From the IMG/VR virus record IMGVR_UViG_3300006754_000108, positions 1 through 28,710 of that record: 28,710 nucleotides of DNA; one strand, given 5' to 3'. This DNA is from a virus. The notes under the pieces are model-generated. The model ran no database searches. It had not been told where the DNA came from and worked only from the letters and a program-made list of their open reading frames with translations. Both the position numbers and the translations under genes were made by a program. Shown piece by piece: positions 3,531-27,533 of the stretch (position 1 is the first letter of the stretch; every line of letters starts with the position of its first letter).

Positions 3531-4709
3531 ATGGCTAAAGAAATAAGATTTTTGGGCGGTTCTACTCCGTTTTTAAGGACGGAGTTTGAGGAGCGGCTTA
3601 AATATAAAAACCTTATTAATCTCCCCGGAATGATAGACACATTATATGATCAACGTGCATATGGGCTAATTAACAAGAATTTTGAACCAGTTTATCTTGT
3701 TAACGATCAAGAAGTGCTGTCAAACTTTCCGAATTTAGCTGATGGAGTATTTTGCTTGAACTTCGTCGCGGCCGCCTTTAAAAACTTTAGAAGAGACTAC
3801 ACCGGACGCATTTCCAATACAAACCTAGGTTTTCCGCCTTTCTTAGACCAGGTCATCCCCACTGCTGGTCATGTACCCTTCGAGGAGGCCTATTCTGATT
3901 ATTCGATTTATACTGGTGTAAAATATTCTACTTTTTTGCAGAATGACACAAGAATAAACGATTATAATTGTTACTTGACCGCGATAAAAGAGACTTTCAT
4001 GCAAAACTTAAAATCTTTTCCTATTACGCGCAGCGGCTTTTTGCTTTCAAGGCATAGTAATATAAGAACTTCTGGGTTAGTGTTGGAGTTAGCAAATCTA
4101 GATTATAACCGAGACTTGGAAAAAGGACAAATAATACAAAGTCAAGAATTCCAGTGCTTTATTGACTATGCAAACGTTGCAGGGTTCTATGTTGATAAGT
4201 TTAATCCATGGCGCCTCTACGCAGATCTTAATAGTTCTGCCATGGCTTCACAAATCCGTAGAGCAGCACCCCCTGCAGCCGGAGAATATAATCAAAATAA
4301 TGACACCGAAAAGGTCCTCAATTCAATCTACCGCCTCCGGTCTCAAGAGGATGACCTTTACGACTTGCAAGATTTCATAATAAAAACTTACAATGATATA
4401 AAGAAAAGGGTTCCATTTTATACGAAAACAGTGTATAATAATACTAGCAATACAGCAAACAATAAGAGTATCTTCCGCCCGGACATAAATTTGCTGACAG
4501 CAGAAGAGTGGCTTGAAATGCTCTTAATGGTCCGCCTTCTAGAGCTGGGCAGATATACAGATCCGACTTTTAAGACTCTTAAAGGTTCGGTGTTGCAAAA
4601 CTACAGAATTTATGGCACGAAACAAGCCATTGGCAGAATTGGCCAAATATGTTCACAGATTATAAAAGAGAATTATGAAAAAGGAAATTCAGATACTTCA
4701 ACCCCTTGA
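3531..4709 (+). CDS. Virion structural protein of unknown role
   Basis: A 392-residue protein, preceded by a good ribosome binding site (TAGGAGAG, ending 7 nt before the ATG). It is rich in Tyr, Phe, Asn and Arg, with repeated aromatic-plus-Asn clusters such as KFNPWRLYADLNS near residue 225. It has no signal peptide, membrane helix or enzymatic motif that I can identify. It follows the large virion protein by 17 nt and its last 35 nt overlap the start of the family A polymerase gene, so it is the last structural gene before the replication block. A tail or neck-region role is inferred from position only. Confidence 0.55.
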   Translation: MAKEIRFLGGSTPFLRTEFEERLKYKNLINLPGMIDTLYDQRAYGLINKNFEPVYLVNDQEVLSNFPNLADGVFCLNFVAAAFKNFRRDYTGRISNTNLGFPPFLDQVIPTAGHVPFEEAYSDYSIYTGVKYSTFLQNDTRINDYNCYLTAIKETFMQNLKSFPITRSGFLLSRHSNIRTSGLVLELANLDYNRDLEKGQIIQSQEFQCFIDYANVAGFYVDKFNPWRLYADLNSSAMASQIRRAAPPAAGEYNQNNDTEKVLNSIYRLRSQEDDLYDLQDFIIKTYNDIKKRVPFYTKTVYNNTSNTANNKSIFRPDINLLTAEEWLEMLLMVRLLELGRYTDPTFKTLKGSVLQNYRIYGTKQAIGRIGQICSQIIKENYEKGNSDTSTP

Positions 4710-5814
4710 CGTTGAAAACAATTGCATCGGAATCCACTATAAAAATAAACTTACATTTGAAGATTTCCAATCGGTCGCAAAAGAAGGCGACATCGCCTGG
4801 CAGCACTCTCACATTTTTGAAGAAGACCAAAAGTATACCTATCTTAATTTATTTATTAAAAACAAGGATTTAACACAATATTCGCAAGACCCTACAGCAC
4901 TTAACTCATGCCAATCGCTTCTGGAGTCTCAAAAGCTAGCTGCAATAACGGCGCAGGTTGATTTTTCGGATCTCTGCTTCTTTGAGCTTCTTCCCGATCA
5001 TTTACTTAAAAAATGGTTTTCCCTCCGAGAGCTTGCCATGCAAAATATCGCAATGAAAGTGGAGAGGCCACCTGATTACGAGATTCTTCATAGAATTCAC
5101 GTACTTACGGCAAATGTAGCAAAGCAGGCCATCATCATCAACGGCCAAGAAGAAAAAATAAAATATGATATCTTCTCCTCCGCTACGGGCCGCTTATCGA
5201 CCGCAAAAGGTTCATATCCTATACTCAGTGTTAGTAAAGAAGAGAGAAGTAATGTGGTACCCCAGAACGATCTTTATTTAGAGATTGACCTTAATGGGGC
5301 TGAGATAAGGACACTGCTGGCTTTCTCAGGGATTGACCAACCACTCGAAGATATTCACATGTGGAATATGAGAGACCTGCCGCCTTGGATCACCCGCAAA
5401 GAAGCAAAAGAGGAATTTTTTGCATGGCTCTATAATCCTGCATCCGAGAACAAGAATTATGAGAAATTTTATAATAAAAAAGCATACTTAGACCACTTCG
5501 ACGGCACGTCTGTTACCACCCCTTTTGGAAGAAAGCTACCAGTCGATGAAAGAAAAGCATTAAATTACTTGCTTCAATCAACAACATCTGATATAGTATT
5601 ATATAACACATACGAAATTATGAAGAAGTTGAAGAAAAAGAAAAGCTTCGTAGCTTTCACAATGCATGACTCTGTGGTTCTTGACTTCGCCAGAGAAGAC
5701 TACGATTTGGTTTCAGAATTAAAAGATATTTTTGAAAAGAACATGTTCGGCAGGTTCTTATCAAGTGTTAGAATAGGAAAGGATTTCGGCACAATGAAGG
5801 AAATAGTAATTTGA
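4675..5814 (+). CDS. Minimal family A DNA polymerase (fingers/palm, no exonuclease domain)
   Basis: At 379 residues this is far shorter than Pol I (about 930) or T7 polymerase (about 700). The N-terminal 150 residues do not resemble a 3'-5' exonuclease. The polymerase core is clear: SATGRLST (169-176), motif A with D205, E210 and R212, motif B with R241, K245, F249 and Y253, and motif C H331-D332. The spacings equal those of E. coli Pol I (D705/E710/R712, R754/K758/F762/Y766, H881/D882). Motif C ends in Ser instead of Glu (HDS for HDE), and YG of motif B is YN. Both catalytic aspartates remain, so activity is plausible. The ATG lies 35 nt inside the previous virion gene. The missing exonuclease could be encoded elsewhere (split polymerase), or proofreading may come from another protein. 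Its last codon overlaps the next TTG start. Confidence 0.88.
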   Translation: MKKEIQILQPLDVENNCIGIHYKNKLTFEDFQSVAKEGDIAWQHSHIFEEDQKYTYLNLFIKNKDLTQYSQDPTALNSCQSLLESQKLAAITAQVDFSDLCFFELLPDHLLKKWFSLRELAMQNIAMKVERPPDYEILHRIHVLTANVAKQAIIINGQEEKIKYDIFSSATGRLSTAKGSYPILSVSKEERSNVVPQNDLYLEIDLNGAEIRTLLAFSGIDQPLEDIHMWNMRDLPPWITRKEAKEEFFAWLYNPASENKNYEKFYNKKAYLDHFDGTSVTTPFGRKLPVDERKALNYLLQSTTSDIVLYNTYEIMKKLKKKKSFVAFTMHDSVVLDFAREDYDLVSELKDIFEKNMFGRFLSSVRIGKDFGTMKEIVI

Positions 5815-12970: not shown

Positions 12971-12998
12971 TTGACATTTTAGCTGAATATGATATAAT
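12971..12998 (+). promoter_or_regulatory. Consensus sigma-70 promoter for the ParB-like gene
   Basis: TTGACA at 12971-12976 and TATAAT at 12993-12998 are both perfect, with a 16-nt spacer. It lies right after the reductase stop and about 45-50 nt before the ParB-like start, and probably also transcribes the downstream tRNA. Confidence 0.85.
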
Positions 12999-13050: not shown

Positions 13051-14244
13051 TTGACATCAGCACAGTTAAGACAGATAGCCTCCTCTGGCTACTCTCATTT
13101 GAACACAAACCAAAGAATTCAGGCAGCATGCGCCGAGCATACGAACTTTATAAAATCAAACTTTGTCTTGGGTGGGGACCTTCATATCCTTAAGACTAAG
13201 GACATAGTGTTTGACTATAAAGGAATGGCCCATCAACCTCGCCTAGGCAACCTGGATCCTACAACTGTAAGGAAATATAGCGCTCAAGCAAAAAACGGAG
13301 TAAATGGGGTTTTCGGGATCCGAAAGCCAATTACTGTCTATTGGAGCACAGTTCAGCAAAGTTTCATTGGTATCAAGGGTCATCATAGGTATTCGGCCGC
13401 AAGGGAAATAGGATATAATTATATCATAGCTCACATTGATGATATCTTTCCAAGCCTATCGAAGCAAGAACAAATTGATTGTCTGATGAGCGATAATGCA
13501 TTTGCTGATAATGGCATGCAAAGTTGTACTCGCAGTATTGCAGAGGCATTAAAAGCGACCCTACAGGACGAAACATTCATGCGCGCCGAGAGAAAGATGC
13601 AACAGCAATTGCAGGAAAAACTTAAATCTTGCAACGAAGAATCTAGAAGAAAAGAGATTGAAAAGAACATCAAGGAAATTAGTAAGAAAATTCGTGGACC
13701 ACTTGATATTCTGGCCCAAAAGTGGAATCCATCGACGGCTAGTTCGTCTAATAAGACATTAGTTACAAGAGCTTTAAATAACTACCAGGCGAAGCACTTG
13801 GTCCAGGTTTTTAACCATACGACTAAGCAAAGAAAAGCATATATTTCACATGCTGTCAACACGTTGGGAAATGATGATCTTTATTTTGATTGGGGCCAAG
13901 CGGTAACAAACAATAACGTGCAAATTAACTTGCCAACTGCCGAATTTCTCGCTAAGGTAAGAGAGTATAAGAAAGCGAATAATAGCGGAAAGTTGCCTTC
14001 TTCTTTTACTTTTTTTACTTGTATTCCAGGTGGAGTAAAAGATTATCAACACCTTTTTCAATTGCGCAGCCGTATAGAAGAGAGTATTATAGATAGAGTG
14101 GCAGATGTTTACCCATCCGTTCCTCGTCACTTTAAATTCTTAGGTCAGGTCCTTAATCAAAACTCTCCCTGTGCAGAAGACCCTAAGAAACTATATGATT
14201 CGTCCTATGTTACCAGCTATATTAAGCAGAGCAAAAAGAATTAA
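13051..14244 (+). CDS. ParB/Srx-domain protein
   Basis: 397 residues from a TTG start at 13051 with AAGGAAAC just upstream; no better in-frame ATG is present. Residues about 49-130 look like a ParB/sulfiredoxin domain: KDIVFDYKGMAHQPRLGN, a strand ITVYW, then GIKGHHRYSAAREIGY (108-122), corresponding to the GERRxxAA motif that binds or hydrolyses nucleotide in ParB proteins. A charged helical segment follows at about 185-225. The rest is unassigned. Stand-alone phage ParB-like proteins are often nucleases, CTP/ATP-binding switches or modification partners rather than partition proteins; no parA is visible here. It ends 10 nt before a tRNA and is followed by a Mom-like gene, so a link to DNA modification is possible. 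Confidence 0.7.
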   Translation: MTSAQLRQIASSGYSHLNTNQRIQAACAEHTNFIKSNFVLGGDLHILKTKDIVFDYKGMAHQPRLGNLDPTTVRKYSAQAKNGVNGVFGIRKPITVYWSTVQQSFIGIKGHHRYSAAREIGYNYIIAHIDDIFPSLSKQEQIDCLMSDNAFADNGMQSCTRSIAEALKATLQDETFMRAERKMQQQLQEKLKSCNEESRRKEIEKNIKEISKKIRGPLDILAQKWNPSTASSSNKTLVTRALNNYQAKHLVQVFNHTTKQRKAYISHAVNTLGNDDLYFDWGQAVTNNNVQINLPTAEFLAKVREYKKANNSGKLPSSFTFFTCIPGGVKDYQHLFQLRSRIEESIIDRVADVYPSVPRHFKFLGQVLNQNSPCAEDPKKLYDSSYVTSYIKQSKKN

Positions 14245-14348: not shown

Positions 14349-14402
14349 TCTCCTCATAGTGCGGAGATAGTACTTGACAATCTCCCCAAAAAAGTGTAAT
14401 AT
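14349..14402 (+). promoter_or_regulatory. Promoter and operator-like inverted repeats for the Mom-like gene
   Basis: TTGACA at 14374-14379 is followed after 17 nt by TAATAT at 14397-14402 (TGTAAT at 14395-14400 with a 15-nt spacer is an alternative -10). The -35 box lies inside an inverted repeat GGAGAT (14363-14368) / ATCTCC (14380-14385). A third copy, TCTCC at 14349-14353, makes a second inverted pair with GGAGA. This arrangement suggests a repressor or activator site over the -35 element. Confidence 0.6.
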
Positions 14403-14437: not shown

Positions 14438-15610
14438 ATGATTAGTGAAAAAAAACCAGATTACTCCGACCGTACAAAATATTGTAAAAAGGTTTCATAT
14501 GAAATTAAAGAGATCGATAAAATAAAAGCAATAGAGTTAGTTCAAGAAAATCATTACTCGCCAGTGATGCCGACACTAACAAAGCATTTTCTGGGTGTCC
14601 ACAAGGATCAAGATCTGGTTGGAGTAATCACACTCGGCTGGGGGACGAAGCCGATGCATACTATCCAAAAAGTTATAAACAAAGAGATGACGTCTAAAGA
14701 CTATTATGAGATAGGCAAGATGTGCATGCTAGACGAAGAGCTAGGTAATTCAGAGACGCAGATGCTCTCGCAAGTTGTTCGCTGGCTTAAGAGCAATCAT
14801 CCGGACGTTAAGTACTTATACACTCTCGCAGACGGCATCATGGGAAAATGCGGAAGCGTTTATCAGTCAGCAAACTTTTATTATGGAGGTGAGTATTGGA
14901 CTGACAGCTATATGTCAGCCAAGGGAGAAAAAGTACACCCAAGAACAACGCGGCAGCTTTGCTTTGATAACTGGGAGTGGCATTACAATTCTAAATCACC
15001 AGGCCATATTCCAGAGTTCAAGAAAACTCATGATGTAAAAGCTGCAGCAAAACGCCAGAGTTATACAGAAGCTCTCGAGTCCCTGATACACAATATTCCA
15101 CCAGAGTTAAGCGAAGAAAAGGCCTCTCAAATCCGCCAATTTTCAGCTGACTTTTATGAGTCCCGAAGCAAATATATTCGGGCATACGACGAATTCGTCA
15201 GTTCAAAGGCCGCATTCAGTCAACGACCAGTAGAGAAGTCTTTCTTGCCAAGTGTTCCAAAGGGCCTATCAGAATACCTCTCTAATCCGAAGAAAGATTA
15301 TATTAAGAAACAGCAAGTATTTTGGCTAACCCCTGAGTACATGAAACATATCGGTCTTCGCAAGATTAAAGGTAAAATGTTTAGATATATTTATCCTCTA
15401 AGCAAGAGTGCAAAAAAGCTCCTGAAAAAGAGTGAACAGATTGAGTGGAAGATCGGTTCCGGCGTATACCCAAAGGAAAATAACGGTGTATTGCAATGGA
15501 AAGAGATGATGGGAAGAAACGATTATCAAATTCTAGAAGAGATGCCAGCATGGGACTTGCAAGTCACTGAACACAACGAGAAAAATGTAAATGCACATAA
15601 AAGCAAATAA
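14438..15610 (+). CDS. Mom-like GNAT-fold DNA modification protein (candidate)
   Basis: 390 residues. The N-terminal part (about 20-170) follows phage Mu Mom: NHYS (38-41), a strand pair with LGVHKDQDLVGVITLG, EIGKMCM..E..GNSE (91-106) matching the ELNRM..D..PRNSES pattern, a helix, then YLYTLADG (126-133) and a GSVYQSANF segment (139-147). Mom is a GNAT-like protein that converts adenine in DNA to N6-carbamoylmethyladenine and protects phage DNA from restriction. Residues about 210-390 are additional, Lys/Tyr-rich and unassigned, perhaps DNA-binding. It has its own promoter with an operator-like repeat, and ATGAGG as a partial ribosome binding site. Another GNAT acyltransferase role cannot be excluded. 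Confidence 0.65.
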   Translation: MISEKKPDYSDRTKYCKKVSYEIKEIDKIKAIELVQENHYSPVMPTLTKHFLGVHKDQDLVGVITLGWGTKPMHTIQKVINKEMTSKDYYEIGKMCMLDEELGNSETQMLSQVVRWLKSNHPDVKYLYTLADGIMGKCGSVYQSANFYYGGEYWTDSYMSAKGEKVHPRTTRQLCFDNWEWHYNSKSPGHIPEFKKTHDVKAAAKRQSYTEALESLIHNIPPELSEEKASQIRQFSADFYESRSKYIRAYDEFVSSKAAFSQRPVEKSFLPSVPKGLSEYLSNPKKDYIKKQQVFWLTPEYMKHIGLRKIKGKMFRYIYPLSKSAKKLLKKSEQIEWKIGSGVYPKENNGVLQWKEMMGRNDYQILEEMPAWDLQVTEHNEKNVNAHKSK

Positions 15611-15949: not shown

Positions 15950-16265
15950 AATTCCACCTGTGCTCAAGCCGGTCAATAGGCACTTAACAATTGTCCCACA
16001 TGTTCAGAAAAATGAAACATCAACAGGAGTACTTCTTCCAGATGGTTTTGAACCAGAGGAAGATAAATATATTACAGCAACGGTCATAGACATCGCTAGC
16101 GACTGCTCCCCCGCGTTGAGAGAGCTGCGAGGCTCTAACAGTCGAAACAAGGTTATTGTCATTGACCGGAGCATGATGGAAGAAATAAAAGTAAGAGACA
16201 AATCATACTTTACCATTTTAGAGAACTATGTTATCGGGATGCTAAGAGGGCTTAATGAAAATTGA
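15942..16265 (+). CDS. GroES/gp31-like cochaperonin
   Basis: 107 residues. LKPVNRHLTIVPH (8-20) matches the first strand of GroES (IRPLHDRVIVKR), followed by a mobile-loop-like segment around ETSTGVLLPDG (25-35) where GroES has its GroEL-binding loop, then an ATVIDIASD strand (GEVLAVG position) and a VIGMLRG C-terminal strand (DILAIV position). T4 gp31 replaces host GroES for capsid protein folding, and phage versions are about this size and highly divergent. Start at 15942 with AGGAG five nt upstream; its end overlaps thyX by 11 nt. The chaperonin partner would be host GroEL. Confidence 0.62.
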   Translation: MSRIPPVLKPVNRHLTIVPHVQKNETSTGVLLPDGFEPEEDKYITATVIDIASDCSPALRELRGSNSRNKVIVIDRSMMEEIKVRDKSYFTILENYVIGMLRGLNEN

Positions 16266-16959
16266 TCTTTTCGGCGATGACATCGGATCTGTTGAGTACA
16301 TCACTCATATGGGTAACGATCTGAGTGTTGTGAACGCCGCCCGCGTTTCATTCGGCGCAGAAAAAGAAGAGCTGGATGAGAAAGATATTAAGCTTATTAA
16401 ATATCTCATGAAACACAACCACACTAGCCCTTTTGAGCATTGCACAATCACTTTTCGATTTGTAGTACCATTGTTCGTTAGGAGTCAACATCACCGCCCT
16501 AGGACATGGGCATTTTCGCTCATCAGCCGCAGATATACCTCAACTGATATGCAGTTTTATAATCCGGCCGCATTTCGAAGTCAACATGAATCAAACAGGC
16601 AAGCTAGTAATGAAGATGTGATTGACCCAACGTTAAACTCTTCTTACATGGGAATCGGCTTTGAGAAAGCATCTAATGCTGTAAAGATGCACAGCTCTAG
16701 AAGTTTGAGCTTATACAACGCCCTATTAGACGCAGGGATTTGTAGGGAGCAAGCTAGAGGTGTGCTTCCTCAAAACCTCTATACCCAATACTATGGCACA
16801 ACAAATCTTCATAATTTGTTAAAGTTTATTAGCTTGAGAATACACGAAGGTGCTCAATGGGAAATACAACAAGTAGCCAAAGCATGCTTAAATGTCGCCC
16901 TTATCCATTACCCTGTTGTGACAGAGACTTACATTCAAAAATATATATCGGAGAAATGA
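16255..16959 (+). CDS. thyX: Flavin-dependent thymidylate synthase ThyX
   Basis: Converts dUMP to dTMP with FAD, NADPH and methylenetetrahydrofolate. 234 residues, a normal ThyX length. N-terminal VVNAARVSFG, then KHNHTSPFEHCTITFRF, then the signature region FVRSQHHRPRTWAFSLISRR (74-93), and later REQARGVLPQNLYT and LRIHEGAQWEIQQVA. These match ThyX throughout. The RHRx7S signature is RPRx7S here (R81-P82-R83, S91), and the usual SxNE that follows is changed, an uncommon variation around the flavin site. The ribosome binding site AAGAGGG is 4 nt before the ATG. It pairs functionally with the dUTPase and the reductase. The stop lies one base before the lipoprotein GTG. Confidence 0.9.
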   Translation: MKIDLFGDDIGSVEYITHMGNDLSVVNAARVSFGAEKEELDEKDIKLIKYLMKHNHTSPFEHCTITFRFVVPLFVRSQHHRPRTWAFSLISRRYTSTDMQFYNPAAFRSQHESNRQASNEDVIDPTLNSSYMGIGFEKASNAVKMHSSRSLSLYNALLDAGICREQARGVLPQNLYTQYYGTTNLHNLLKFISLRIHEGAQWEIQQVAKACLNVALIHYPVVTETYIQKYISEK

Positions 16960-16960
16960 C

Positions 16961-19150
16961 GTGAAAAAGTTATTATTATTTTCAGTTTTAACATTGGCCT
17001 GTTCCGCGGAAACAATATCATTTACGGAACCCCCACGAGATGGCGCCATTTCGGTACCACAAGATTCACAGGCACCCGACTATCATGTTATTGATTCTTC
17101 CGTTCGGCCGCCAATTATTGATGCATCACCCCCGGTGCTTCCATGCCAAAATTTGGATGTTTCGGATCATGAAAAGTACTGCTTGTGTCTCCCTCAATGT
17201 TGTGAAACACAAGAGTGGTATTGTCCTCCTACCCCAGACCAGACGATTCAATCTATGCAGGTTGTCCTAGAGGTGTGCGATGAAGAGGAGGTATCTTGTG
17301 TTTTCGGTGAGGATGAAGACTGCCCACCACCACAAATAATCCATAGGAGTCCATGCCAGGTTACTCATGAATGTCCCCCCGGTTCGACGAGAGATTTTTT
17401 ACGCTGGTTTGAGTGCCAACTGGAAGACGGCACATTCGGCCGTCAACGCGTCTTATGTGATAAGGGGGTGGTTGTCCATGGTCCTTGTACTTCTTGTGAC
17501 CCAGAAGTCTGTGATGGCATCGACAACGATTGTGATGACCGTATCGATGAAGACCCAATCCTCTGTGAGGACGAATGTGGCCCCGGAGTCGGCCTTTGCC
17601 AGAATGGGGTGTTGGTGGAATGTGTTAACAGGGATCCAGAAGAAGAAATTTGTAATTTTATCGATGATGACTGCGACGGAGAGATAGATGAAGATCAACG
17701 GAATGACTGCGATGGTTGTGGGGAACTCCCTTTGGAAGTTTGCGACAGCGTCGATAACGATTGTGACGGAAGGACTGATGAGTCTCTTTTACGAGAGTGC
17801 GAGACACAATGTAACCGCGGCCTTGAAACGTGTATCAACGGTCGATGGGGTTCCTGTACCGCACGTCAGCCAGTTCAAGAAATATGCGACGGCTTAGACA
17901 ATGACTGTGATGGCATCCCAGATGAAGGCATTAACTGTCTATGCACAATAGACCAAGTTGGGGTACTCATCCCCTGCGCTGAGCCGCCTTTATTCTGTGG
18001 GATGGGCTTTAAAACTTGTCAATGCCGCGACGTGGACTGTCAAATAATCGAGCTAACTCCCTGTCTGGCACTCTGTGTTTATCTCCCTGAGCGTGAGGGG
18101 GAAGAATGTCATCCTGGCATTGGTCGTCCCGTGGAGCCTGAAATATGTAATAATTTTGACGAAGACTGCGACAACCTGGTTGATGAACAGCTCACTCAAG
18201 CATGCTATACGGGTCCCCCTGGCACTATAAATGTGGGGATTTGCCTACCTGGAGAGCAGTCTTGCGTCGAGGGACAGTGGGGTGGCCCCAACGGAGACGG
18301 CCGTTGGACTGAAAATATTTGCAGCGGCGAAATTATACCAGCCGAAGAAGTCTGCGATGGTGCTGATAACGATTGCGACGGCGAGAACGATTACGGAGAG
18401 GACTTGCACCCAACCGATATCCTGTTAATTATTGACACTAGCGGTTCAATGAGTGGTGAAATTAGAGCAGTTACTGCAGCTCTATCCCGTTTCGGCCAGC
18501 ATTTCGCCGCAGAAGATGCAATCCATTGGGGCCTCATCATCGGCCCAACACGAGCACCCAATCCGGACTTTCCAGGCTCAGACCATGAGGTTCTAACACG
18601 CGTGTCGGATATCGCACCATTTCAGCAGTTCTTTGACGCATTTGTAAATTTGGACCCTTTGACTTTTGATGGGGGTTTCGAGATGCTCATGGACGCAGTA
18701 ATGTTATCTTTGAGAAACCTTAGCCCACTGCATGTTGACCTCGCCGCACGCAATTGGATCAGGGGAGTAGTATCGGTCCCTGAAAAGGATAATTTTATTA
18801 TTAACTGGCGTCGGAATACGGACCGAATCATTATCGTCTTTACTGACGAGAATGAGCAGTCTTATTTCAACCCGCCGTTTCATCGTAACGACCTTACTAA
18901 CGCGCTCGCTGCGGCACCAAACACAAAATTATACACTTTCGCTTTGGCCTTCTATTTCTGGGATGAGTTCGCGATTGCCACTGGCGGTAGAAATTTTGAC
19001 CTTACTTCTCGTGCTGGCCAAATGTACGATAATTTAATGTCGATTATAGATGAAATATGTCTGCCACAACCGGGAGAACAAGCTGGTTTTAGGAGGATTC
19101 CGCAGAGTGTAGTGAAATACCAGTTTGCTTCTGAATTGATGTGTTTTTAG
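16961..19150 (+). CDS. Lipoprotein with six MopE-type metal-binding repeats and a VWA domain
   Basis: 729 residues from a GTG start with GGAG (16950-16953) inside the end of thyX. A signal peptide MKKLLLFSVLTLAC gives a lipoprotein cysteine at C14. The next 470 residues are extremely rich in Cys and Asp and carry six copies of a CDxxDNDCDGxxDE motif, at about residues 183, 230, 260, 308, 396 and 464, matching the putative metal-binding (MopE) motif. A C-terminal von Willebrand factor A domain (486-715) has a complete MIDAS start, D492-T-S494-G-S496. Such proteins are surface adhesion or metal-binding proteins of bacteria, notably Myxococcota-like groups. Inside a phage metabolic operon it is unexpected; a role at the host cell surface, such as superinfection exclusion, is speculation. 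Confidence 0.85.
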   Translation: MKKLLLFSVLTLACSAETISFTEPPRDGAISVPQDSQAPDYHVIDSSVRPPIIDASPPVLPCQNLDVSDHEKYCLCLPQCCETQEWYCPPTPDQTIQSMQVVLEVCDEEEVSCVFGEDEDCPPPQIIHRSPCQVTHECPPGSTRDFLRWFECQLEDGTFGRQRVLCDKGVVVHGPCTSCDPEVCDGIDNDCDDRIDEDPILCEDECGPGVGLCQNGVLVECVNRDPEEEICNFIDDDCDGEIDEDQRNDCDGCGELPLEVCDSVDNDCDGRTDESLLRECETQCNRGLETCINGRWGSCTARQPVQEICDGLDNDCDGIPDEGINCLCTIDQVGVLIPCAEPPLFCGMGFKTCQCRDVDCQIIELTPCLALCVYLPEREGEECHPGIGRPVEPEICNNFDEDCDNLVDEQLTQACYTGPPGTINVGICLPGEQSCVEGQWGGPNGDGRWTENICSGEIIPAEEVCDGADNDCDGENDYGEDLHPTDILLIIDTSGSMSGEIRAVTAALSRFGQHFAAEDAIHWGLIIGPTRAPNPDFPGSDHEVLTRVSDIAPFQQFFDAFVNLDPLTFDGGFEMLMDAVMLSLRNLSPLHVDLAARNWIRGVVSVPEKDNFIINWRRNTDRIIIVFTDENEQSYFNPPFHRNDLTNALAAAPNTKLYTFALAFYFWDEFAIATGGRNFDLTSRAGQMYDNLMSIIDEICLPQPGEQAGFRRIPQSVVKYQFASELMCF

Positions 19151-19926
19151 AGAAGGTTGTTATTGGGCACACCCCAGAATCTGTGGCATATGCTTATCTT
19201 AACGGGTGTTACCACATACAGAGTACAAGTTTCCAGCCTCTCTTCTTCGAAGAATATAAAGATTTCTCTTTTTTTGGCACAAAAAACAAAAGCCAGATCT
19301 GGCAGAAGTTTAAACTGTGGCTTGGTTTGCTAGCTAAGAATATAGATTATCCAGATTTGGAGCGAATTCGCCTGCAGGACAATAAGGTGAGATTGTTTGG
19401 CGATAGCCTATTGGCGGAGTTTGAATTCGAAAAATGTTATATATTTGAAAGCTTAAATGTGACACACGAAAATAAGATACAAGAAACCAAACCTCAAGTT
19501 TATAAGGTCATCGACGATTTTACCATTTCGCGAATAGGGAAAGACGTCACACATATAGATCCAGTGTATACGAAGGACAGTCTCTTGAGGGAATCGTACT
19601 TCTACAACTCTTTAAGGGTTGACGGAGCAAAATTTGTGACGGATGCGGTGACAGCCTCTTATCTTACAAAGAAGCAGCTTTATGATTTTGAATATTCAGA
19701 CACAATGGCTAACTTCAAACTCAAGAGCCAGCTGAATTCCAGGGGCTATATCGGCCGCAAAGAGAAGGGCAAGTATAAGAATGGGACAGACATCTATAAA
19801 AAGTTTATAATAAAACATATTAAGCGATATGTGTTGGAACAAGATTCATGCAAATATTTGGATACACAAAACATAAAGTTTTTAACCGCAAGCATGCAGG
19901 ATCTCTTTAATGCAGCCGGCTCCTAA
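19141..19926 (+). CDS. Conserved phage protein of unknown function, Rossmann-like N-terminus
   Basis: 261 residues, GTG start at 19141 overlapping the lipoprotein end by 10 nt; no other good start exists and no Shine-Dalgarno is close, so the start is uncertain. The N-terminus KVVIGHTPESVAYAYLNG (5-22) looks like the first strand and turn of a nucleotide-binding Rossmann-like domain. The C-terminal third has a motif rich in charged and aromatic residues, YDFEYSDTMANFKLKSQLNS then RGYIGRKEKG, followed by a basic helix. From memory, proteins with such a C-terminal motif occur in marine myoviruses as unknowns. It overlaps the nucleotidyltransferase-like gene by 17 nt, so the two probably act together. 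Confidence 0.5.
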   Translation: MFLEKVVIGHTPESVAYAYLNGCYHIQSTSFQPLFFEEYKDFSFFGTKNKSQIWQKFKLWLGLLAKNIDYPDLERIRLQDNKVRLFGDSLLAEFEFEKCYIFESLNVTHENKIQETKPQVYKVIDDFTISRIGKDVTHIDPVYTKDSLLRESYFYNSLRVDGAKFVTDAVTASYLTKKQLYDFEYSDTMANFKLKSQLNSRGYIGRKEKGKYKNGTDIYKKFIIKHIKRYVLEQDSCKYLDTQNIKFLTASMQDLFNAAGS

Positions 19927-20755: not shown

Positions 20756-20968
20756 ATGAAAGAAAATAAAAGTTTATCAATCGAAGAACGCTATAACGAT
20801 TTGTCAGATTTGACAAAGGAAGATATCGGCTTCCCTTCCACATATTTATGCTTGACAAATGCTCAAGAGTCGTTTATACTGGATATATTAAGTGGTCATG
20901 AGAAAGCCATCAAAGAAGAATTATCCTCACTTTTAGGGGAAATGAAAGAATTAGTAGATGACATCTAG
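20756..20968 (+). CDS. Small acidic helical protein, unknown
   Basis: 70 residues, rich in Glu, Leu and Ser, predicted helical, with no recognised motif. TAGGAATAC just upstream supplies a ribosome binding site. It overlaps the DnaE-type polymerase start by 11 nt, so it may be a small partner of the polymerase or only a translational leader for it. A consensus promoter lies within its coding sequence. Confidence 0.5.
   Translation: MKENKSLSIEERYNDLSDLTKEDIGFPSTYLCLTNAQESFILDILSGHEKAIKEELSSLLGEMKELVDDI
20852..20880 (+). promoter_or_regulatory. Near-consensus sigma-70 promoter upstream of the DnaE-type polymerase
   Basis: TTGACA at 20852-20857, 17-nt spacer, TATACT at 20875-20880 (11 of 12 bases). 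It lies inside the small 70-residue gene and about 70 nt before the polymerase start codon, in the right place to drive polymerase expression separately. Confidence 0.6.
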
Positions 20969-23900
20969 AACAAAATCAAACATCCCATTCGTGGGACTTC
21001 ACGCGCACTCTGTCGCAGGCTCGCCATTCGACGCGCTAGGGTACCCAGCAGAGCATATGGACTTTGCCTACAAAAATGGTATGAATGCTCTGGCTTTGAC
21101 TGACCATGGTAATGCCAACGGCCTTGCTGGCCAAGTGCTTCACGCCAAGAAAATGTTAAAGGATGGCAAAGACTTCAAGCCAATCTTCGGTGTCGAAGCT
21201 TACTTCATTCCTTCCGTCGCGAAATGGAAGGAAGAATATGAAAATATCAAAGCTGCAGCCAAAAATAAATCAGAATATGAAGCTGGCAAATCTGGTACCA
21301 CCATCGAGAACGAGGCCTCAAAAAAGAAGATGAAGTCTGTGCTGAACCGAAGACGACATATGATTCTTCTTGCGCAGAACCAAGAAGGCCTCCAAAACAT
21401 ATTTAAAATGATCTCTTCTTCTTATGCGGGCAACAACTTTTACCGGTTTCCCCGTGTGGACTATGCGCTCCTTAGAAAATATAATAAGGGTGTCATTGCA
21501 GCTAGTGCTTGCCTAGGTGGCGTGTATGCTGGAAACTACTGGGAAAATAGGGATGAAGGAGCTGACGCCATTCTCGATGCAATGAGAGAAACAACCCAGA
21601 AGATGCAATCCATCTTTGGCGACCGTTGGTACGGAGAACTGCAATGGAACAGCATCCCTGAGCAGCACGAGTTAAACCAATATATAATTCAGATGCATCA
21701 TGAGTTTGGCATTGAGTTAATTTCAACGGCCGATTCACATTATTATGATCCGGATGCCTGGAAAGACCGCGAGCTGTATAAGCGCCTCGGTTGGCTTGGA
21801 AGGGGCAAACCAGATTATTTATCTGACGAACTGCCAAATTCTGTTGAAGAAATCGGATATGAGTTATACCCAAAGAATGGTGACCAAATGTGGGAATCCT
21901 ACCAGAGGTATGCCAAAGGGGCCAAGGCTGAATACAATGATAAAATAGTGCGTGACTCGATTGAGAGAACGTATAACATCGCTCATGAACGCATCGAAAC
22001 CTTTCTACCAGACAACAAGGTAAGGCTTCCCAGCTTCGTCGTGCCAGAAGGCTCTACAGCAGGCCAAACCTTGGCTGCGCTCTGCGTAGAGGGCGCACGA
22101 ACCCTAGGGCTAGGGGAGAACAAAGAATACACGGAGAGGCTTGAATACGAGGTCGCAATCATTGAATCCCGCGGCTTCTCAAAATACTTTCTGACGATGA
22201 AAGCAATTGCGGATATTGCTGTAGGGCGACAACTTGTCGGTCCAGGTAGAGGCAGCGCTGCTGGCTCCTTGGTTTCTTATATCTTAGGAATCACACAAGT
22301 CGACCCGATTAAATATGGCCTACAGTTTGAACGCTTCCTGACAAAGGGAGGCACAGGCTATCCGGACATTGATTATGATGTCTCTGAGCCTATGCTTCTC
22401 AAAGAGTATTTAATTGAAGAGTGGGGTGATGATACTGTTGTCCCAATCACAAACTGGAATACGCTGCAACTTAGATCTCTGATAAAAGACATATCAAAGT
22501 TTTATGGAATTGAATTTACAGAGGTGAATAATGTAACCAGCAAGATGGTTTATGAGGCCACCCCGTTAGCGAAGAAAGCACATGGCATTACAGCAGGAGT
22601 ATATGCCCCGACCTTTGAAGAGCTGATGCTATATTCAGAGACACTTCAGGCCTTCCTGAAGAAATACCCACACATCAAAACCCATGTAGAGAAGTTATAC
22701 GGGCAGACTAGATCAGCCAGCCGACATGCTGGTGGAGTTGTGGTGGGAGAACGATTAAACGAATGGATGCCACTTATTAATAGTGGAGGCGTCCGCCAAA
22801 CACCTTGGAGTGAGGGACAAAATGTTAGACATCTGGAACCAATGGGCTTTATTAAGTTTGATATACTGGGACTGGCTTCTTTGCGAATGGTTGAGGGTGC
22901 TATAGAGCGCATACTTCAAAGGCATCATGATGTCGAAAATCCAACGTTTGAGCAAGTGAGAGCTTTTTATGATGAACACTTGCACCCAGACAAGATTGAT
23001 TTAAGTGATAGTGAAGTCTGGAAGAATGTTTTCCACAAAGGAAAGTGGGCTGGTATTTTCCAGTTTACTGAAACAGGCGCACAATCATTCTGTAAGAACG
23101 CCAAGCCAGATAATATTACTGACTTGGCAGCTATCACTAGCATATACCGACCAGGACCTCTATCGGCCGGCGCGGATAAGATGTTCATCGGCGCCAAACG
23201 TTCACCCGAAGATGTAGAATATTTGAATGATACAGTGAAAAGAGAGACAGAGGAAACTTATGGTTTCTTAATCTTCCAAGAGCAGATAGCAATGCTTGCG
23301 CATAAGTTGGGTAAAGATCTATCCCTAGATGAAGGAAATAAACTTCGTAAACTTTTAACGAAAAAGGGCACTGGCTCGGTTCAAGAGCAGAAGGATAAAA
23401 TCTTTGATAAGTTTCACAAGGGTTGTCTTGAAAAAGGTATCGCATCTCATGACGCAAGAGAGCTATGGAACAAATTTGAGTATTTCTCAGGCTATGGTTT
23501 TAATAAGTCCCATGCAGTTTCATACTGTATACTCTCTTTCCAATGTGCCTGGCTTTTAAATTATTACCCGACTGAGTGGCTTGCAGCCTTTTTAGATAAG
23601 GAGCCCGAGACAAGAAAAGAAAGGGCAATCTCAACTGCAAAGTCTTTTGGCTATAATGTTGAAGCACTAAATGTTAACACTTCTGGTGTGACTTGGGAGA
23701 TAAAAGATGACGGTAGGACACTTGTCCAGCCACTGACTTCAATTAAAGGTTTAGGTAGTGTGGCCATTCAGCAGATTATTAAACATAGACCATTCAATAC
23801 TATCGAAGAGTTCTTGTTTCATGATGAAGTAAAATACTCTAAACTGAATAAGAAAGCACTTGATGCTCTATGCCGGGCCCAAGCCCTCAATGATTTGGTC

Positions 23901-24389
23901 GACGACCGTTTCACCGGTCTGAAGCATTTTTGGCAGGCGGCCGTTACTGATCGGCCAAGAAAGTTAAAGAATCTGGAAGAAAATATTGTAACGTATGCTG
24001 CAGAAGGGGACTTCACAGAAGAGGAGAAATTGGAATATTTAGTTAACCTCACTGGAGTGTTCCCGATAAACTCAGTTATTACTGATGTAGTGAGGAACAA
24101 ACTTGACGAGCTTTATATCCCTCCAATTTCTGAGTATGATGCAGAGTTAGGTGTGACTTGGTTTATTCCAAGAGAATGCAAACTAAAGAAATCAAAAAAT
24201 GGTAAGAATTTCTATGTCGTCAAAGTTATTGACGACAACAACGAAACCAATACAATCAGATGTTGGGCAGTAGATCCGAAGAGGGATGTTGTCCACATCA
24301 ATCGTCCATATATGGCAAGACTTAACTATGACCCAAACTGGGGGTTCTCAACCTTCAGCGTAAGAAGAATGTTTAAACTATTAGCATAA
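20958..24389 (+). CDS. dnaE: Family C DNA polymerase (DnaE-type alpha subunit) with PHP domain
   Basis: A full-length 1143-residue alpha subunit. The N-terminal PHP domain has H15-x-H17, D49-H50 and E80, later C185, and D259 and H261 in a TADSHYY segment, suggesting an intact metal centre. The palm has GPGRGSAAGS (428-437), D470/D472/D474 in YPDIDYD and D635 in KFDILGL, the three catalytic positions. Fingers-type motifs RHAGGVVVG, IYRPGPLSAG, FQEQIAML and GYGFNKSHAVSY follow. A helix-hairpin-helix lies near 920-950 and an OB fold at about 1060-1143. Likely the main replicative polymerase. No beta-clamp or epsilon gene is visible here. The start overlaps the small upstream gene. Its co-existence with a family A polymerase in one phage is unusual. 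Confidence 0.95.
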   Translation: MTSRTKSNIPFVGLHAHSVAGSPFDALGYPAEHMDFAYKNGMNALALTDHGNANGLAGQVLHAKKMLKDGKDFKPIFGVEAYFIPSVAKWKEEYENIKAAAKNKSEYEAGKSGTTIENEASKKKMKSVLNRRRHMILLAQNQEGLQNIFKMISSSYAGNNFYRFPRVDYALLRKYNKGVIAASACLGGVYAGNYWENRDEGADAILDAMRETTQKMQSIFGDRWYGELQWNSIPEQHELNQYIIQMHHEFGIELISTADSHYYDPDAWKDRELYKRLGWLGRGKPDYLSDELPNSVEEIGYELYPKNGDQMWESYQRYAKGAKAEYNDKIVRDSIERTYNIAHERIETFLPDNKVRLPSFVVPEGSTAGQTLAALCVEGARTLGLGENKEYTERLEYEVAIIESRGFSKYFLTMKAIADIAVGRQLVGPGRGSAAGSLVSYILGITQVDPIKYGLQFERFLTKGGTGYPDIDYDVSEPMLLKEYLIEEWGDDTVVPITNWNTLQLRSLIKDISKFYGIEFTEVNNVTSKMVYEATPLAKKAHGITAGVYAPTFEELMLYSETLQAFLKKYPHIKTHVEKLYGQTRSASRHAGGVVVGERLNEWMPLINSGGVRQTPWSEGQNVRHLEPMGFIKFDILGLASLRMVEGAIERILQRHHDVENPTFEQVRAFYDEHLHPDKIDLSDSEVWKNVFHKGKWAGIFQFTETGAQSFCKNAKPDNITDLAAITSIYRPGPLSAGADKMFIGAKRSPEDVEYLNDTVKRETEETYGFLIFQEQIAMLAHKLGKDLSLDEGNKLRKLLTKKGTGSVQEQKDKIFDKFHKGCLEKGIASHDARELWNKFEYFSGYGFNKSHAVSYCILSFQCAWLLNYYPTEWLAAFLDKEPETRKERAISTAKSFGYNVEALNVNTSGVTWEIKDDGRTLVQPLTSIKGLGSVAIQQIIKHRPFNTIEEFLFHDEVKYSKLNKKALDALCRAQALNDLVDDRFTGLKHFWQAAVTDRPRKLKNLEENIVTYAAEGDFTEEEKLEYLVNLTGVFPINSVITDVVRNKLDELYIPPISEYDAELGVTWFIPRECKLKKSKNGKNFYVVKVIDDNNETNTIRCWAVDPKRDVVHINRPYMARLNYDPNWGFSTFSVRRMFKLLA

Positions 24390-26463: not shown

Positions 26464-26771
26464 CCACAAAGAAAGTATTTTTTGAGGAAGATGATAATCA
26501 GCATGCCAGAATGCTGATCCGACTCCGATATGATAGGTTGACACAGGGCAAATTTTTCCGAGGCCTTGTGGAGATGTATGTGAAAAATGATTTAGATATG
26601 ATAAAAGTGATTGAAAAAATTAAAATAGAAAAAAGCACAATGGGTCGCCTCAAGCGCGAAAAATCTGTGAAAGAAATAGAAAAAGGAGAGAATATGATGC
26701 AAGACCTAGGTCTATCAAAAAACGAAAAGAATTTTATATATGATTTAATAGAGGAAGATTTTGAAGAATAA
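26460..26771 (+). CDS. Small phage protein, possible ribbon-helix-helix-like regulator
   Basis: 103 residues, highly charged. The N-terminus VFFEEDDNQHARMLIRLRYDRLTQGKFFRGLVEMY has a strand-helix pattern like ribbon-helix-helix proteins (a short strand with alternating residues, then two helices), followed by KSTMGRLKREKSVKE and an acidic C-terminus. From memory, close relatives are common unknown proteins in marine myoviruses. It starts in the ATGA overlap with IMPDH and overlaps the sigma-like gene at its 3' end, so the three are probably co-translated. A DNA-binding role is an inference. Confidence 0.5.
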   Translation: MTTKKVFFEEDDNQHARMLIRLRYDRLTQGKFFRGLVEMYVKNDLDMIKVIEKIKIEKSTMGRLKREKSVKEIEKGENMMQDLGLSKNEKNFIYDLIEEDFEE

Positions 26772-26973
26772 AGAAAACAAAGAGTGCTCAGAAGAAAATT
26801 GCAGATGCTGGATTGACTACCCAGAAGACGATAATTGCATATACGAGGCAATACGAAAACACGGAAATATGACTTTGGATGAAACGTCTAAGAGGTTAGG
26901 TATATCTTTGGTGAGGGTATCTCAGATTGAGAAGCAAGCTCTGAAGAAGCTTTCGAAGAGAATAAAAAAATGA
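26761..26973 (+). CDS. Sigma-70 region 4-like helix-turn-helix protein
   Basis: 70 residues from a TTG start overlapping the previous stop by 11 nt. The C-terminal half MTLDETSKRLGISLVRVSQIEKQALKKL (37-64) matches the region 4.2 helix-turn-helix of sigma-70 (LTLEEIGxxLGISxxRVxQIExxALxKL). The N-terminal half has four cysteines (C9, C14, C16, C26) and no region 2. It could act as a minimal promoter-specificity factor, a co-activator or an anti-sigma-like decoy. Phages often encode such small region 4 proteins. No target promoter family can be tied to it from this window. Confidence 0.6.
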   Translation: MKNKENKECSEENCRCWIDYPEDDNCIYEAIRKHGNMTLDETSKRLGISLVRVSQIEKQALKKLSKRIKK

Positions 26974-27044: not shown

Positions 27045-27533
27045 ATGAGTGAGAAGAAACTACTTAACGAAAACACCATTCGTCGTTTTATGAAGCTAGC
27101 AAATGTGGGTCCATTGACCAACAATTTCATTGCTGAGAATTATGAGGAAGAGGTTGTCGAAGAGGCAGCTGAGGAAGAAATGCCTGAGGACGAAGAGATG
27201 CCTGAGGACGAAGAGATACCTGAGGACGAAGAGATACCTGAGGACGAAGAGCTTGAGATGGAGCTTGGAGATGAAGATGGGGAGGTCATGGGCGAAGCCG
27301 ATATCAGCCTTACAGAAGAAGAGGCCCAACTCCTTATCGATCTAGGCGATCGCCTTCGCGATGCCATGGGCCCAGAAGAGCCTGAGATGGAAGAGCCAGA
27401 GACGGAAGAGCCAGAGACGGAAGAGCCAATAGGAGCGGAAGAGCCAGAGCCAGAAGCTCCTGAGGACGACCTCATACAGGAAGTTCTTCGTAGAGTGACC
27501 AAACGTTTGATCCGCGAAAGAACACGCCGCTAA
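27045..27533 (+). CDS. Acidic repeat protein, possible scaffold/structural protein
   Basis: 162 residues, extremely acidic between about 35 and 145, with two repeat blocks, and a basic C-terminus (RRVTKRLIRERTRR). The N-terminus KKLLNENTIRRFMKLANVGPL resembles, from memory, a short segment found at the N-termini of several virion-associated proteins in marine myoviruses. Low complexity and the acid-then-base layout suit a scaffold or prohead core protein. A strong ribosome binding site (AAAGGAGAT, about 10 nt upstream) and its own 70-nt leader suggest high expression. The stop is followed by a terminator at 27571. Function is inferred only. Confidence 0.5.
   Translation: MSEKKLLNENTIRRFMKLANVGPLTNNFIAENYEEEVVEEAAEEEMPEDEEMPEDEEIPEDEEIPEDEELEMELGDEDGEVMGEADISLTEEEAQLLIDLGDRLRDAMGPEEPEMEEPETEEPETEEPIGAEEPEPEAPEDDLIQEVLRRVTKRLIRERTRR
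27180..27251 (+). repeat. Four tandem 18-nt repeats (coding MPEDEE/IPEDEE)
   Basis: Four consecutive 18-nt units of the form ATR-CCT-GAG-GAC-GAA-GAG at 27180, 27198, 27216 and 27234. Only one base differs among them (ATG in the first two, ATA in the last two). Near-identity at the third codon positions indicates recent duplication by slippage. Confidence 0.95.
27375..27425 (+). repeat. Tandem 15-nt repeats (coding EEPEM/EEPET)
   Basis: Three 15-nt units of GAAGAGCC(T/A)GAGA(T/C)G start at 27375, 27390 and 27405, followed by degenerate GAAGAGCCA copies at 27420 and 27438. This is the second slippage-type block in the same acidic gene. Confidence 0.9.

Follow-up and report, generated by a model that had tools for sequence, protein, structure and literature searches.

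What is a protein of host-like surface modules doing in the nucleotide operon of a phage? The question is raised by a gene, here called LIP, that encodes a 729-aa lipoprotein with MopE-type repeats and a VWA domain. The window (the whole stretch of DNA analysed, 28.7 kb) carries the genes of a T4-like virus with DnaE: structural and other genes (baseplate wedge, ClpP-type head protease, ParB-like, Mom-like and GroES-like), genes of replication and recombination (gp32-like ssb, UvsX, exonuclease, DnaB helicase and DnaE) and genes of nucleotide metabolism (ribonucleotide reductase, thyX, dUTPase and IMPDH). As an earlier note on this DNA had stated, and as the coordinates confirm, LIP starts one base after the end of thyX (16959/16961) and its 3' end shares 10 nt with the following gene D, for which family searches gave no match (Table 1). 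Elsewhere in the window, a short PolA-like ORF (4675-5814) occurs together with a full DnaE (20958-24389), a perfect sigma-70 type promoter (TTGACA-16-TATAAT, 12971-12998) lies ahead of the ParB-like ORF at 13051-14244, a 390-aa ORF with a Mom-family DNA-modification domain (14438-15610; 5e-49) is absent from this place in most relatives, and a 70-aa ORF similar to sigma factor region 4 (26761-26973) is kept in relatives.

Table 1. Position in the window of LIP, of its neighbours and of its parts.
Feature	Position	Strand	Basis
LIP, 729-aa lipoprotein, MopE-type repeats + VWA domain	16961..19150	+	ORF, GTG start
thyX, FAD-dependent thymidylate synthase, partner in exchangeable thyX-LIP pair	16255..16959	+	Pfam Thy1 6.5e-46
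Gene D, overlapping downstream neighbour	19141..19926	+	Conserved neighbour in relatives
Signal peptide, lipoprotein type (residues 1-13, lipobox LTLA)	16961..16999	+	Sequence; helix 2-11 in model
Cys14, predicted lipid-bearing residue	17000..17002	+	Invariant in 50 sequences
Variable low-confidence linker (residues 15-57)	17003..17131	+	pLDDT <50 for 13-57; mean pairwise identity 0.24
N-terminal Cys-rich beta region (residues 58-180)	17132..17500	+	pLDDT mostly 67-93
MopE-type repeat 1	17510..17551	+	CDGIDNDCDDRIDE
MopE-type repeat 2	17651..17692	+	CNFIDDDCDGEIDE
MopE-type repeat 3	17741..17782	+	CDSVDNDCDGRTDE
MopE-type repeat 4	17885..17926	+	CDGLDNDCDGIPDE
MopE-type repeat 5	18146..18187	+	CNNFDEDCDNLVDE
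MopE-type repeat 6	18353..18394	+	CDGADNDCDGENDY
VWA (integrin beta I-like) domain, residues 482-704	18404..19072	+	AF2, Foldseek, VIA
MIDAS motif DTSGSM (residues 492-497)	18434..18451	+	D, S, G, S, M invariant in 50 sequences
Loop-3 MIDAS Asp629 (FTDE)	18845..18847	+	Invariant in 50 sequences
Disordered C-terminal tail, conserved C-aromatic end	19073..19147	+	pLDDT <50 from 704

The host-like module and the G+C content of LIP, 0.48 against 0.42 for the whole window, might point to an assembly chimera or to bacterial contamination. We consider such an origin virtually impossible and rejected it, as the borders of LIP are conserved across dozens of contigs. Relatives were found at 74 IMG/VR loci (42-100% identity), in most of which thyX lies immediately 5' of LIP, and numerous independent contigs, at 42-66% identity, repeat the gene order. 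The canonical order thyX-LIP-D-E-dnaE was observed in contigs of up to about 193 kb, and LIP in other gene contexts in contigs of up to 284 kb. The earlier note had proposed to look for the gene at the same locus in related phages: scanning with the VWA profile gave 171 confirmed stretches, of which 80 were kept, and 57 of the 80 had the arrangement thyX-LIP-D. Moreover, the best GTDB-set matches listed, from Myxococcota and related marine MAGs, did not exceed 27-44% in the best segment, mainly over the repeats, and the bacterial matches listed included no host homologue of nearly the same sequence; the bacterial contig scan used generic repeat patterns, and a full-length homologue could lie outside these matches. 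LIP is truly part of a conserved phage locus, and neither of the conditions under which the earlier note would have given up its claim, chimerism at the borders or contamination from a host, applies.

In phages with a more distant DnaE (65-68%), LIP is absent from its canonical place, and a MopE-repeat gene lies elsewhere in three of the larger contigs of this group (G018, G019 and G022), with weak VWA matches besides the repeats in G018 and G019; no MopE-repeat gene was seen in the 95 kb contig G020, and small fragments are uninformative. MopE repeats occurred in 19/19 large contigs tested, a frequency that is not unbiased, most of them having been picked for carrying LIP, and one contig (G012) has two LIP genes in tandem (L280 7952-12578). 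Since related large phages have a protein of this kind in other places of their genomes, LIP is close to core in this lineage. The dN/dS values of the whole gene, between 0.03 and 0.12 in pairs not saturated at synonymous sites, indicate purifying selection, and mean pairwise identity is 0.60 in the repeats and 0.51 in the VWA domain, against 0.24 in the linker and 0.22 in the tail. Isolated phages seem to include no close relative: DnaE was about 30% identical to the best-listed INPHARED records, and every match was below 60%. LIP itself had no match in INPHARED, PHROGs, NCBIfam or PADLOC, and a search of the open-access literature gave no paper describing a phage MopE/VWA lipoprotein, in agreement with the earlier note, which knew of no described phage system with this protein. 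An anti-defence reading was dropped, as PADLOC gave no match. LIP is thus a real, conserved and undescribed phage lipoprotein of surface type, made of known parts. As a separate observation, ORFs sharing amphipathic N-terminal tags (MKLLFENWRKYLKE, MRITKRQLRRIIKEE, MKLLREYIRELLNE) occur in the window at 27045-27533 and in L275, L276, L277, L279 and L280, and many of them surround LIP in other phages; these are perhaps virion-targeting tags.

The anatomy of LIP is well supported. By motif and alignment it begins as bacterial lipoproteins do, with an n-region, a hydrophobic stretch and a lipobox Cys, which bears out the lipoprotein signal noticed before, and full-length relatives have a lipobox-like start. 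Of the 52 lipoboxes found by pattern, 48 have Asp or Glu at +3 and none has Asp at +2; the pattern skipped four proteins, including the LIP of the window, whose lipoboxes are plain by eye. Given that no Asp occupies +2, we infer a location in the outer membrane. The N-terminal Cys-rich region gave no match to solved structures at E<0.1, in Foldseek lists that were filled by the VWA head, so that the fold of this region and of the stalk was hardly probed.

All six repeats of CDxxDNDCDGxxDE type that the earlier note had counted were found (D-N/D/E-D-C-D/N, starting at residues 188, 235, 265, 313, 400 and 469), in a protein with 54 cysteines in 729 aa. The family profile PF11617 (Cu-binding_MopE motif) matched LIP with E 1.3e-16 and 60.9 bits, the curated cut-off being 27, and matched 50/50 relatives (E<=0.01), in which a regular-expression count gave 4-8 repeats. 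The name of the family, and its presence in all 50 relatives, could suggest that LIP scavenges metal, namely copper. However, MopE binds Cu(I) through His132/His203/kynurenine130 and not through the CDxxDNDCDG motif (PMC3423442), so that the repeats lend the copper reading no support. In a structure search, moreover, LIP did not match any solved MopE chain at E<=5. A scavenger of copper is therefore most improbable, and the suggestion of a surface metal binder, as far as copper is concerned, was left unsupported.

The head was modelled both within the whole protein and alone. The whole-protein AlphaFold2 model had a mean pLDDT of 80.8 and a pTM of 0.44; the individual domains appear well predicted, but not their mutual arrangement, and the extended stalk is consequently deduced from the repeats and not from the model. 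The VWA domain alone reached pLDDT 88.6 and pTM 0.85. Although the Pfam VWA profile was sub-threshold on the LIP of the window (E 0.0073), it matched 32/50 relatives (best 2.2e-5), and the fold was recognised by Foldseek and VIA, whose neighbours were integrin beta I-like domains, TFIIH p44, ITI heavy chain and other VWA domains. Integrin beta I-like domains and TFIIH p44 were among the closest solved folds, with a VIA Z of about 16; with the integrin beta I-like domains identity is about 13%, a likeness of fold only. In the 50 aligned sequences the invariant positions comprise the lipobox Cys, many Cys and Asp of the repeats, DxSGSM, Glu574, Asp578 and Asp629, and hence the MIDAS DxSxS and the loop-3 Asp. 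By contrast, the loop-2 Thr is Phe in the LIP of the window and variable in relatives, which makes the MIDAS only partly canonical; Glu574 and Asp578, close by, are among the residues that never change. Of the MIDAS-type VWA domain claimed earlier, the fold, DxSGSM and D629 stand and the canonical loop-2 Thr does not. LIP has no C-terminal membrane helix and no Arg tail. The conserved C-aromatic end may be a sorting or beta-signal, as it looked at first. In most loci the codon of this Cys is partly dual-coded, sharing bases with the gene D start codon, but the Cys is also kept in L025, L032, L042, L045, L070 and L104, where gene D does not overlap. Taken as a whole, LIP is very probably a lipid-anchored stalk and head.

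The flanking genes appear to have a history that differs from that of LIP and thyX. Pairwise distances of exo, dnaB, o15677, D and E correlated with each other at 0.85-0.95 (Spearman), those of thyX and the LIP segments with the same flanking genes only at 0.15-0.34, and thyX with the LIP segments at 0.34-0.61 (0.61-0.68 for the whole LIP); inter-taxon distances are not independent, and the correlations describe a pattern. This pattern indicates exchange of LIP and thyX, with the flanking genes inherited together. Because the distances of the LIP_V segment and of gene D, given dnaB, are uncorrelated (0.01), one border of exchange can be placed near the LIP/D overlap, and the second upstream, near groES/thyX. 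LIP is itself a mosaic, the distances of its N part and of its VWA part correlating at 0.33. In the pair L038/L040 the VWA part is nearly identical at synonymous sites and the rest of the gene is not, which argues for recombination inside LIP, and three loci (L091, L104 and L105) have a 27-28% allele at the same place. On the other hand, dut (dUTPase) and IMPDH are likewise decoupled from the flanks, so that nucleotide genes are exchanged in general and LIP may simply travel along with thyX. One could read the exchangeable thyX-LIP cassette of this large lineage of uncultured marine phages as encoding a surface recogniser on the infected cell, with a VWA head varying by allele and with host-type modules put together in the opposite order; it would be an integrin-like, allele-specific system of superinfection exclusion or cell recognition, a reading that we regard as rather doubtful.

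The earlier note had called the architecture typical of Myxococcota-like bacteria. This proved true of the repeats and not of the whole, because the bacterial proteins with both modules, from Myxococcota and marine 'Deltaproteobacteria', begin with the VWA part and frequently close with MYXO-CTERM. In fact, a MIDAS-type motif was present in 9/102 repeat ORFs of the bacterial loci fetched, with the VWA before the repeats in 9/9, and most such ORFs with a complete end had a MYXO-CTERM-like tail, an element that directs proteins to the cell surface (PMC11980579). These proteins share with LIP a VWA-type MIDAS motif and PF11617-type repeats, but their order is VWA-repeats-MYXO-CTERM, whereas that of LIP is lipobox-repeats-VWA, and their VWA sequences are only distantly related to that of LIP: tblastn with its VWA part reached at best E 0.02 in the fetched loci. 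Since inverted orders go with anchors at opposite ends, both kinds of protein would be expected to carry the head on the tip of the stalk, in a common layout of membrane anchor, stalk and VWA head. Other bacterial MopE-repeat lipoproteins (for example L160, L161, L168 and L219) have, like LIP, a lipobox and then PF11617-type repeats and, unlike LIP, no MIDAS-type VWA motif was found in them. The phage VWA profile gave four weak hits at 1e-6 in 235 genomes and none at 1e-8 in 188 genomes or 5 others, in overlapping sets that included no bacterial positive control, and the best VWA hits of the sampled Myxococcota genomes were generic VWA. Apparently, Myxococcota-type bacteria share the repeats of LIP but not its VWA subfamily. 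As to the host, the phage helicase had one weak hit (31%) in Myxococcota genomes, and phage DNA matched them almost only in repeat regions, over 30-60 nt, as a consequence of the shared motif; a Myxococcota-like host is suggested by the repeats only. One genome, G035 (MAG NP119, 10.8 Mb), shows a large expansion of MopE-repeat proteins, with 285 repeat-region matches.

The likeliest reading is that LIP is a surface lipoprotein. It would be made together with the replication and nucleotide genes of the phage; its lipidated N-terminal Cys would anchor it in the outer membrane, and a disordered linker would lead to the Cys/Asp-repeat stalk, stiffened by disulphides and probably by calcium, which would lift the VWA head off the membrane so that its MIDAS metal site could bind a ligand. 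In this way the surface of the infected cell would be remodelled and, above all, the receptor masked or occupied, with the result that other virions would fail to adsorb. That LIP is displayed outside the cell is probable, even if outward exposure would require a host export route not visible in the sequence. The complete picture, of an outer-membrane surface lipoprotein whose head binds a ligand during replication and which serves mostly for superinfection exclusion or receptor masking, is plausible but tentative, and somewhat more tentative is the single claim that exclusion or masking is its main role. The place of LIP directly after thyX, in a neighbourhood of replication and nucleotide metabolism, would suit early or middle expression, although operon position is no proof of it. 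A precedent is the T5 lipoprotein Llp, an outer-membrane superinfection-exclusion protein of a kind that many phages express early (PMC9586334). Llp, and Cor of T1 and phi80, are like LIP phage-encoded lipoproteins directed to the host outer membrane; but they are small and periplasmic and act on a TonB-dependent receptor (PMC9586334), while LIP has 729 aa with repeats and a VWA domain, and a sequence relation is not known. Given their size, location and different mechanism, the precedent is loose. The phage VWA proteins reported so far (TerF-type, MoxR-vWA cochaperones and CobT-like) share the fold with LIP and are described as chaperone partners or as proteins below the membrane (PMC7824862); unlike in LIP, a lipobox or MopE repeats have not been reported in them.

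A display outside the cell could also serve contact. LIP might copy host VWA/MopE adhesins, so that infected cells stick to cells or particles and progeny find more contacts, or it might shield the infected cell from predators or from being recognised by kin. The modules are common to surface-type VWA/MopE proteins of Myxococcota-like bacteria, the head is integrin-like, and the alleles vary and are exchanged; yet the host is not known to be a member of the Myxococcota, the head subfamily was not found at E<=1e-8 in the sampled genomes of that phylum, where generic VWA was best, and free-living plankton would presumably gain less from aggregation. We consider adhesion unlikely, and shielding no less so. 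Many outer-membrane lipoproteins face the periplasm, and LIP could do the same, stabilising the envelope, delaying or aiding lysis or holding a phage envelope protein. Its neighbourhood in G018, G019 and G009 indeed has small lipoproteins or short N-terminal membrane ORFs which, judged by eye, resemble spanins, but the canonical locus is without such neighbours, and a long stalk with a ligand-binding head would be odd for an envelope job, which makes this role improbable. Finally, in several phages LIP is surrounded by ORFs whose tag-like N-termini may be a sign of virion proteins, a position that would be consistent with an accessory adhesin on the particle. The lipobox-like start of full-length relatives and a main locus of replication and nucleotide metabolism speak against a virion-associated protein, as does the lack of the T4-type late promoter TATAAATA near thyX-LIP (the nearest is at 14400, and its frequency is no higher than chance), and we give it very little credit.

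If the reading of LIP as a surface lipoprotein is true, a large integrin-like surface protein, described for no phage in the sources searched, would be a near-core phage gene expressed in replication. It would give access to the means by which uncultured marine phages keep second infections or cell contacts under control, and its head could be used as bait for host identification.
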